From an uncultured Opitutia bacterium (GTDB lineage Bacteria; Verrucomicrobiota; Verrucomicrobiia; Opitutales; Opitutaceae), in contig CAIMAQ010000040.1 in NCBI GenBank assembly GCA_903839035.1, positions 62,001-126,000 of the forward strand: 64,000 bases of DNA, read 5' to 3'. Positions 24,097 through 25,333 of the stretch are shown here, piece after piece. The position numbers were made by a program, and so were the translations under genes. How positions within the stretch are numbered: position 1 is the stretch's first letter; the number at the start of each line of letters is the position of its first letter. The notes under the pieces are model-generated. The model did no database searches and was not told the DNA's origin. It saw nothing but the letters and a program-made list of their open reading frames with translations.

Positions 24097-24125
24097 TTGA
24101 CAAGGGCAGGGCCCGCAGGCACTGC
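24097..24125 (+). promoter_or_regulatory. Candidate promoter of the DAHP synthase leader
   Basis: A perfect TTGACA (24097-24102) lies 30 bp before the leader GTG. At 17-18 bp spacing the -10 hexamer is poor (around CACTGC/ACTGCT, 24120-24126). If used, transcription would start close to the GTG itself, so the leader mRNA may be nearly leaderless. Inference from spacing only. Confidence 0.4.
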
Positions 24126-24132
24126 TTCGGCC

Positions 24133-24219
24133 GTGAACCGCTTCAGCGCCTATTACTTTAGCTTCGCTTTCCGGGGGTATTTTACCCGGAAAAACCAAGG
24201 CGGCTGTCGCGAAAACTGA
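24133..24219 (+). CDS. Phe/Tyr-rich attenuator leader peptide for DAHP synthase
   Basis: A 28-codon frame (GTG start, TGA at 24217-24219) too short for usual gene calling. Eight codons are aromatic: Phe4, Tyr7, Tyr8, Phe9, Phe11, Phe13, Tyr16, Phe17, with the core YYFSFAF at residues 7-13. No Trp codon is present. The frame ends just after the 5' arm of an antiterminator hairpin and 73 bp before the DAHP synthase ATG. In known attenuators such peptides sense charged tRNA by ribosome stalling, so this one should report Phe and Tyr supply. The peptide itself is probably not functional. The start codon is inferred; a TTG at 24097 is in the same frame. Confidence 0.8.
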   Translation: MNRFSAYYFSFAFRGYFTRKNQGGCREN

Positions 24220-24269
24220 GTCCACCCCAATTTCGCAAAACAAGCCGCCCCCTCCCGGGCGGCTTTTTT
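24199..24269 (+). promoter_or_regulatory. Transcription attenuator (antiterminator/terminator switch) of DAHP synthase
   Basis: Two exclusive structures share one segment. Antiterminator: GGCGGCT (24199-24205) with AGCCGCC (24243-24249) and GCGAAA (24209-24214) with TTTCGC (24231-24236), a 7-bp plus 6-bp helix. Terminator: AAGCCGCCC (24242-24250) with GGGCGGCTT (24257-24265). The 5' antiterminator arm lies in the last codons of the leader peptide, so a ribosome finishing translation masks it and termination follows, while a ribosome stalled at the Phe/Tyr codons leaves it free. A further hairpin TTTCCGGG/CCCGGAAA (24168-24192) may serve as pause site. Confidence 0.85.
24242..24269 (+). terminator. 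Intrinsic terminator of the attenuator
   Basis: Stem AAGCCGCCC (24242-24250), six-base loop, GGGCGGCTT (24257-24265), with a run of six T (24264-24269). It ends 23 bp before the DAHP synthase ATG, so it would stop the transcript before the gene. Confidence 0.92.
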
Positions 24270-24292
24270 GTTAACCTCGAAACGCCTCCGTC

Positions 24293-25333
24293 ATGATCCT
24301 CCCCAAAACCAACCGTCTCACCGCTGAACAACTGACCGAAATCACCGCGATCGTCGGCGAGTTCGGCTGCAAGATCCAACCCATCATCGGGGCCGTGCGG
24401 ACGATCTACGCGATCGTGGGCGACGAGCGCGACGAGCTGATGATCAACCGGCTCGAGGGTCTGGCCTATGTGGACCGCATCGACCGGATCCAGTCGCCGT
24501 TCAAGCTGATGGACAAACGCTCCGATCTCGCGAGCCACCGCCTCCAGCTCGGCGGCGTGACGCTGGGCGAGCAACTGCTGGTGATCGCGGGCGCGTGCAC
24601 CATCGACCCGAAGAATCCCAACTATTTCTACGAGACCGCCGCAGCGGTGAAGGAAGCCGGCGCTCACGTGCTGCGCGGCGGCGTGTGGAAGCCGCGGACG
24701 AATCCGTACGCGTTCCAGGGCGACGTGAAGTCGCTGGACATCCTGATGGAGGCCTCGCGCCGCACGGGCCTGCCGGTGGACACCGAGGTCATGGAAGACA
24801 ACCACATCAAGCTGGCGCTCGACGCCGGCGTGCACTCGCTGCAGGTCGGTGCGCGCAATGCGCTCAATTACTCGCTGCTGCGGTCCATCGGCCGGGCGAT
24901 CGCGGAAAAGGACACCTGCGTCCTGCTCAAGCGCAGCATCCACATGGGGTCGCTGGCGGAGTTCATCTCGGCGGCGGAATACATCGCGGCGTTTGGCAAC
25001 CCGAACGTCATCCTCTGTCCGCGCGGCACTTCGCCGACTCTCGACGGCTACCGCAACCATCCCGACGAAAGCATCACGCCGCTACTCAAGGAAAAGACCT
25101 GGGCGCCGGTCGTGATCGATCCGTCCCACTCGGTGGGCAAGGCCGTCTATGTTCCCGCCTGCGCGCTCGCGGCCGTGGCGTACGGCGCGGACGGACTCTG
25201 CATCGAGTCGCATGTCAGCCCGAGCCACGGCATTGGTGACGATCCGAAGCAGGCGGTGACACCCGACGTGCTGAAGGAGATCATCAAGCAGGCCAAGCAG
25301 CTGTGGACACTGCGCCACGGCACCGCGAACTGA
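24293..25333 (+). CDS. aroF: 3-deoxy-7-phosphoheptulonate (DAHP) synthase, type I-beta with N-terminal regulatory domain
   Basis: First enzyme of the shikimate pathway, joining phosphoenolpyruvate and erythrose 4-phosphate. The 346-residue protein has a small N-terminal ferredoxin-like domain (about 1-70, beginning MILPKTNRLTAEQLTEI), known from the Thermotoga enzyme to bind Phe/Tyr for feedback control, then the barrel of the KDO8P-synthase-like type I-beta class. Active-site stretches include VIAGACTI, LRGGVWKPRTNPYAFQG, NVILCPRGTSPTL, VVIDPSHSVGK and DGLCIESHVSP. The gene sits behind a Phe/Tyr leader-peptide attenuator, so enzyme activity and transcription would both respond to aromatic amino acids. 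Confidence 0.94.
   Translation: MILPKTNRLTAEQLTEITAIVGEFGCKIQPIIGAVRTIYAIVGDERDELMINRLEGLAYVDRIDRIQSPFKLMDKRSDLASHRLQLGGVTLGEQLLVIAGACTIDPKNPNYFYETAAAVKEAGAHVLRGGVWKPRTNPYAFQGDVKSLDILMEASRRTGLPVDTEVMEDNHIKLALDAGVHSLQVGARNALNYSLLRSIGRAIAEKDTCVLLKRSIHMGSLAEFISAAEYIAAFGNPNVILCPRGTSPTLDGYRNHPDESITPLLKEKTWAPVVIDPSHSVGKAVYVPACALAAVAYGADGLCIESHVSPSHGIGDDPKQAVTPDVLKEIIKQAKQLWTLRHGTAN

Follow-up and report, generated by a model that had tools for sequence, protein, structure and literature searches.

Background

The trp, his and phe attenuators of enterobacteria combine a run of regulatory codons, a protector, an antiterminator and a terminator with shared strands, and in such classical attenuators antitermination rests on the order in which the RNA is synthesized. 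According to the available passages of a 2010 survey, Proteobacteria and Actinobacteria were the only groups in which systems of this kind had been demonstrated until the survey added its own case from Firmicutes (PMC2965389). In the available part of a study of Actinobacteria, operons for phenylalanine or tyrosine are reported to lack a conserved upstream RNA structure (PMC1262725). In Corynebacterium glutamicum, a leader peptide with Phe-Tyr-Phe before the DAHP synthase gene aroF is described as a proposed attenuator in the accessible text of a paper that also cites the ilvBNC leader peptide of the same species, formed without a ribosome binding site (PMC4046766). No amino-acid leader-peptide attenuator from Verrucomicrobiota was found among the papers listed by searches of the openly licensed PubMed Central literature; on leader peptides, the accessible text of an Akkermansia paper deals only with ermB (PMC11683593). 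The literature consulted also includes PMC4833913 and PMC10783764.

The locus described here lies in a window of 64,000 nucleotides, the whole stretch of DNA that was analysed, which is part of contig 40 of a 3.39 Mb Opitutaceae-like genome (Verrucomicrobiota) that is 97% complete. The sequence parts, their conservation, their covariation and their tie to a DAHP synthase gene are direct observations, and what they very probably represent, judged from sequence, is ribosome-mediated transcription attenuation before DAHP synthase that senses charged tRNA-Phe and tRNA-Tyr. The features are as follows.

24097-24102, plus strand: TTGACA, candidate -35 element at a conserved distance from the leader start codon (here 36 nt)
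24120-24126, plus strand: CACTGCT, candidate -10 element, 17 nt after TTGACA
24133-24219, plus strand: leader peptide ORF of 28 codons, 8 of them Phe/Tyr, with a GTG start and without a Shine-Dalgarno word
24139-24151, plus strand: region 1, candidate protector strand, pairing with 24198-24211 (minimum-energy fold, swap test)
24168-24192, plus strand: hairpin ab, 8 bp (24168-24175 with 24185-24192), fold of -12.9 kcal/mol (synonymous-codon test)
24199-24214, plus strand: region 2, antiterminator 5' strand, within the leader ORF (alignment, swap test, folding)
24231-24249, plus strand: region 3, antiterminator 3' strand (alignment, swap test, folding)
24243-24269, plus strand: intrinsic terminator (3:4) with T run 24264-24269 (sequence, folding, mechanical scan)
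24293-25333, plus strand: DAHP synthase (3-deoxy-7-phosphoheptulonate synthase), the putatively regulated gene (PF00793, PF18152, PDB relatives)

The leader and the gene behind it

The leader peptide, VNRFSAYYFSFAFRGYFTRKNQGGCREN, runs from GTG at 24133 to the TGA stop at 24217-24219 and contains five Phe, three Tyr and zero Trp, with the Phe/Tyr codon run spanning 24142-24183. Six neighbouring genes together have 140 F+Y in 2590 residues; at that frequency, eight or more in 27 residues have P = 6.4e-5. The whole-leader fold (24130-24275) has z = -3.40, with none of 200 shuffles equally low. Since 57 loci of the family carry the feature, it is not a product of chance. An earlier note on this DNA had read the eight Phe/Tyr codons without Trp in frame 24133-24219, and this agrees with the sequence base by base. 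The antiterminator that it described is likewise present in the sequence, as 7 bp between 24199-24205 and 24243-24249 and 6 bp between 24209-24214 and 24231-24236, as are the terminator (stem 24243-24250/24257-24264, T run 24264-24269), which a mechanical scan also calls, and the ATG of the DAHP synthase at 24293, 23 nt past the T run. The candidate promoter, the possible 1:2 helix, hairpin ab and the Phe/Tyr-rich leaders found elsewhere in the phylum are additions to that note. In some leaders, that of the window among them, the TTG within TTGACA shares the reading frame of the peptide, so that a longer peptide is conceivable; a start at this TTG is unlikely.

The gene product is a DAHP synthase of type I-beta that carries a ferredoxin-like (FXD) domain at its N-terminus. 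It matches PF00793 (DAHP_synth_1) with 141.9 bits, above the cut-off, and PF18152 (DAHP_snth_FXD) with 33.6 bits against a cut-off of 27, so the N-terminal regulatory domain that had been proposed for the enzyme is real; none of the NCBIfam DAHP synthase models attained its cut-off on this protein. Relatives in the PDB are 1rzm, 3pg9 and 4grs, and the closest named relatives are from Opitutae/Opitutaceae metagenome genomes (Verrucomicrobiota), the best at 97% identity.

The genome holds two additional DAHP synthases, both AroFGH-type, and a fourth DAHP-synthase-like match that, from its context, looks like a KDO8P synthase gene. No comparable leader was found in the 400 nt before each AroFGH-type gene, where the maximum was four F/Y per 16 residues compared with eight for the window leader, or in the 180 nt scanned upstream of trpE. 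The start of pheA coincides with the stop of the preceding gene, and a covariance-model search of the genome gave no second strong match (next E = 0.007). At locus L001, a perfect palindrome, GGCCGGCCACATA-GGGG-TATGTGGCCGGCC, followed by a T run, occupies positions 1201-1238 upstream of an AroFGH-type DAHP synthase, and no aromatic leader was found there.

Conservation within the family

A covariance model built from 11 leaders was run against 252 genomes of the family and gave 53 matches at E<1e-6, of which 52 lie upstream of the DAHP gene on the same strand; the remaining match, in genome G141, sits at a contig end, and the DAHP contig of that genome begins inside the leader. Because an initial search required TTGAC at 35-38 nt, a bias built into its design, it was redone without the distance limit. 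Removal of short pieces and second (antisense) matches reduced 67 matches to 57 study loci, which comprise the 52 strong matches upstream of the gene, four weaker hits from the family and the hand-picked L191 of genome G045, which had escaped the model (E 0.01). Model and inspection together, G141 included, place the leader in at least 58 of 252 family genomes, a lower bound because the model missed G045. By the model, the leader stands at 10 of 80 named DAHP-gene loci, one of them truncated by a contig end. Matches weaker than E 1e-6 are mixed, some being true leaders of divergent genera (g20). All 11 hits inspected away from a DAHP gene, with E from 1.3e-6 to 1.5e-4, read as the ends of genes that carry terminators and were rejected as leaders.

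The leader is on the strand of the DAHP gene in all 57 loci, and its T run ends 9-58 nt from the DAHP start in 47, the farthest lying at 370 nt. In ten loci (L149, L153, L155, L156, L161, L162, L165, L166, L169, L170) terminator and gene are 92-370 nt apart. The outer antiterminator strand and the terminator were located in 55 of 57 loci, two (L188 and L191) having no clear region 2; both arms of the terminator stem are present in every locus. Terminator energies were computed for the window, and stem arms and T runs of the other loci were read from alignment rows. The earlier note had named in advance the alignment of relatives as the place where its reading could fail: the aromatic frame recurs in 57 loci (uncertainly in L188), the antiterminator is kept and the inner helix compensates. 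This comparison of the 57 loci supports Phe/Tyr attenuation as the probable function.

The 55 distinct leaders average 7.0 F+Y and 0.4 W per peptide, and their 1408 residues are 19.2% F, 8.0% Y and 1.6% W. The minimum of two F+Y occurs in the uncertain locus L188, where two frames are candidates and one of them is poor in F/Y. Among loci, the peptides vary in length, C-terminus and stop position. The position of region 2 shifts along with the stop codon, as in genus g20, whose peptides of 18-19 residues have region 2 starting at the stop.

Part of the peptide is kept within clades, as in FxFxGYFTR....GG, and this would be expected of a TnaC-like arrest peptide, in which the nascent chain would stall the ribosome in response to free Phe/Tyr or another signal instead of codon starvation. 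Arrest peptides are usually constrained at their C-terminal residues, whereas the C-termini here differ by clade (GGCREN, GGMSPRKL, GGCLEA, none in g20), F and Y interchange, several loci stop earlier at GG, and RNA pairing accounts for part of the conservation. An arrest peptide is therefore very unlikely, and the variation in peptide length, C-terminus and stop position fits codon sensing better.

Candidate promoter and translation start

TTGACA lies 35-38 nt upstream of the leader start in 54 of 57 loci and 41 nt upstream in two. The distance is 36, 37 or 38 nt in 52 loci and 35 in one; L163, counted among the 54, has TTGACA at 37 nt and another TTGAC at 8 nt, and in L188 TTGACA was not found in range. 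The dinucleotide CA stands at offset 23-24 from TTGACA in 50 of 56 loci, and CA together with T at offset 29 in 42 of 56, while a standard sigma-70 scan called no promoter at the leader. Leader start codons are GTG (24/57) or ATG (33/57), and none of GGAGG, AGGAG, GAGGT and AAGGA occurs within 22 nt of the leader start at any of the 57 loci. The same four words are likewise missing before the DAHP gene of 64 loci with the leader and 69 loci lacking it (some genomes counted twice), so their lack is usual for the DAHP gene with or without a leader. The fixed TTGACA spacing and the missing Shine-Dalgarno word suggest that the leader mRNA may itself be leaderless, with the transcription start probably on the leader start codon or no more than about 3 nt away; if so, the ribosome must load at the 5' end of the RNA without Shine-Dalgarno pairing.

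The pattern TTGACA-N17-CAnnnnT matches the genome three times, with one match at the leader, another 54 nt upstream of a small ORF and the third 35 nt upstream of an ORF with a GTG start. A backward control pattern matched twice, so these counts alone mean little. The small ORF resembles ribosomal protein L34. At locus L294 (1501-1692), TTGACA-N17-CACCTCT precedes this L34-like ORF, hinting that the CA-type -10 form is a housekeeping promoter in the source genome.

Position also bears on another account, in which the upstream RluA-like gene simply ends in an ordinary terminator, a chance ORF is present and the DAHP synthase has its own later promoter. Similar terminators end many genes, as at the 11 weaker model hits away from the DAHP gene described above, but the element accompanies that gene at all 57 loci, the distance from TTGACA to the leader start is nearly fixed, and aromatic content and antiterminator are kept. 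In addition, the T run lies no more than 58 nt from the gene in 47 of 57 loci, leaving little room for a promoter. This account is barely credible.

Alternative RNA structures

Part of region 3 (24243-24249) also belongs to the 5' arm of the terminator, and folding of masked RNAs follows the alternation expected of an attenuator. With region 2 masked (24199-24222; the earlier note had proposed masking 24199-24214), the terminator remains; with 24133-24165, 24133-24183 or 24133-24195 masked and the RNA ending at 24254, the antiterminator folds. Even with no ribosome present, unmasked nascent RNA ending at 24254 folds into the antiterminator (2:3) in preference to 1:2, and unmasked full-length RNA prefers 1:2 plus the terminator. 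Masking of 24133-24165 in the full-length RNA still leaves the terminator preferred, the antiterminator not being favoured at equilibrium, so antitermination must be kinetic.

The swap test used 35 of 55 loci as representatives at under 85% similarity (region 2 of L139 is probably misplaced). For the inner antiterminator helix, true partners have a mean of -6.99 kcal/mol against -5.46 (sd 0.29) for partners swapped between loci, and none of 10,000 swaps was equally low. In 33 of 35 loci the loop folds better than its own shuffles do on average; measured against these shuffles, the effect is moderate, with a mean z of -1.56, 23 of 35 loci below -1 and two loci above 0. Better pairing within than across lineages indicates change on both strands, with kinship remaining in the swaps. 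One compensating change is GCGAAA/TTTCGC in the clade of the window, which corresponds to GCAAA/TTTGC in genus g37. Little test of covariation comes from the outer antiterminator strand, which codes for Gly-Gly and is nearly invariant. For regions 1 and 2, five of 10,000 swaps were equally low and 23 of 35 loci had z below -1, the pairing being weak in g20 and not favoured in the nascent fold; the protector helix in the leader is a possible candidate, as modelled.

Selection on these structures was further assessed by swapping codons for synonyms at leader usage in 31 loci, four of the 35 with a stop before region 2 being omitted. Hairpin ab, whose loop contains the codons for Tyr16 and Phe17, is the structure most clearly favoured at synonymous sites among those tested (mean z -1.80; 30 of 31 below 0; 15 of 31 at ≤0.05). 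The 1:2 helix is favoured in 28 of 31 loci, six at ≤0.05, and the 2:3 helix also in 28 of 31, none at ≤0.05.

Proposed mechanism

Regulation most likely runs in the direction of making the enzyme when Phe or Tyr runs short. With ample charged tRNA-Phe and tRNA-Tyr, the ribosome would get to the stop at 24217 and cover region 2 (24199-24214), regions 3 and 4 would pair, and RNA polymerase would halt near 24264-24269. When Phe or Tyr is scarce, the ribosome would stall on the codons at 24142-24183 and leave region 2 free to pair with region 3 before region 4 is synthesized, so that no terminator would form in time and DAHP synthase would be transcribed. In an untranslated leader, 1:2 pairing might let the terminator form. 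Hairpin ab, located between regions 1 and 2, may hold RNA polymerase for the ribosome.

In alpha-proteobacteria, attenuator products with roles in trans are known, and the terminated RNA or the peptide could correspondingly act mainly as a small RNA or peptide regulator, attenuation being only part of its function. Such a role is highly improbable here, as attenuation alone explains both the linkage to a single gene and the covariation in cis. A T-box, a riboswitch and other known leader families were rejected, the region having no Rfam match at gathering score; across the whole window, only two tRNA matches exceeded the curated score of the Rfam covariance models.

Distribution beyond close relatives

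Among near relatives, three loci (L006, L008 and L017) have the DAHP synthase without a leader, through natural loss or assembly faults, and are useful as controls. Outside the family, the covariance model gave no strong match in 132 genomes of the order and 240 of the phylum, and none of its weak matches (E of at least 8.9e-6) adjoins a listed DAHP gene. A separate scan covered short ORFs with at least seven F/Y in 16 residues upstream of 78 DAHP homologs (24 of the 39 listed loci of the order and 54 of the 68 listed phylum loci outside it, some genomes counted twice), and it found Phe/Tyr-rich leader ORFs at 11 of the 78, compared with about 0.15 expected from base shuffles. None of the 24 scanned loci from other families of the order has a comparable leader. 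All 11 are among the 54 scanned loci elsewhere in the phylum, and one (L267) is doubtful because the start of its gene comes from an extrapolation across 94 residues. At eight of these 11 loci, the scan also places a terminator between the leader and the gene. The 11 leaders include MSGKIYNSFYFYFGYRFYFRNGARCCMVGC at locus L269 and MMTGTAERFFNFYFYYFAFQKRGSSAAA at L235. The model of the window leader did not recognise these outside-family leaders in the phylum sample.

Phe/Tyr-rich leaders stand before DAHP homologs of distant families of the phylum at L235, L240, L242, L243, L249, L261, L263, L269 and L272. In L240, L242, L249, L269 and L272, TTGACA and TATA-like boxes lie well upstream of the leader, so these transcripts look leadered.

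On a tree of DAHP synthases (137 rows), the leader label needs at least eight changes, compared with 43.6 when shuffled, gains and losses not being distinguished. The tree was made by a quick method from a set that over-represents leader loci and includes 8 of 23 loci from outside the family, with partial and identical genes and one row with short upstream DNA omitted. A convergent, independent origin of the outside-family leaders is plausible. The fuller proposal, joining a leaderless RNA from the leader start codon, 5' loading free of Shine-Dalgarno pairing, timing by hairpin ab and a switch that arose or was kept several times across Verrucomicrobiota, is evenly poised between right and wrong.

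Comparison with known attenuators

The 57 loci, varying in stop position, hairpins and spacing, make a testable model both of attenuation that lacks a Shine-Dalgarno site and of the repeated evolution of one switch on the enzyme at the entry to the shikimate pathway. Like aroF of C. glutamicum, as described in the available text of PMC4046766, the locus has a short Phe/Tyr leader before a DAHP synthase gene; compared by that description, it differs from the actinobacterial case in its eight Phe/Tyr codons, its FXD-domain enzyme and the comparative support for its hairpins. The earlier note had stated that no example was known on this gene in this lineage, and this stands for the lineage but not for the gene, since the aroF leader was already described (PMC4046766). 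The trp, ilv and leu attenuators of Actinobacteria are a further likeness, as leader-peptide control outside Proteobacteria; the accessible part of that study, by contrast, finds no conserved RNA structure in front of Phe/Tyr operons (PMC1262725).

With the enterobacterial trp, his and phe attenuators the locus shares the codon run, an antiterminator and a terminator with a strand in common and, as a candidate, the protector. It differs from them in a region 2 placed inside the ORF, an extra hairpin with sensor codons, probable leaderless translation, another phylum and gene, and the lack of an Rfam match. A hairpin with sensor codons under selection, together with a leaderless start, probably constitutes its distinctive traits, in an attenuator that is classical in logic and, as far as the literature was searched, new in the phylum.
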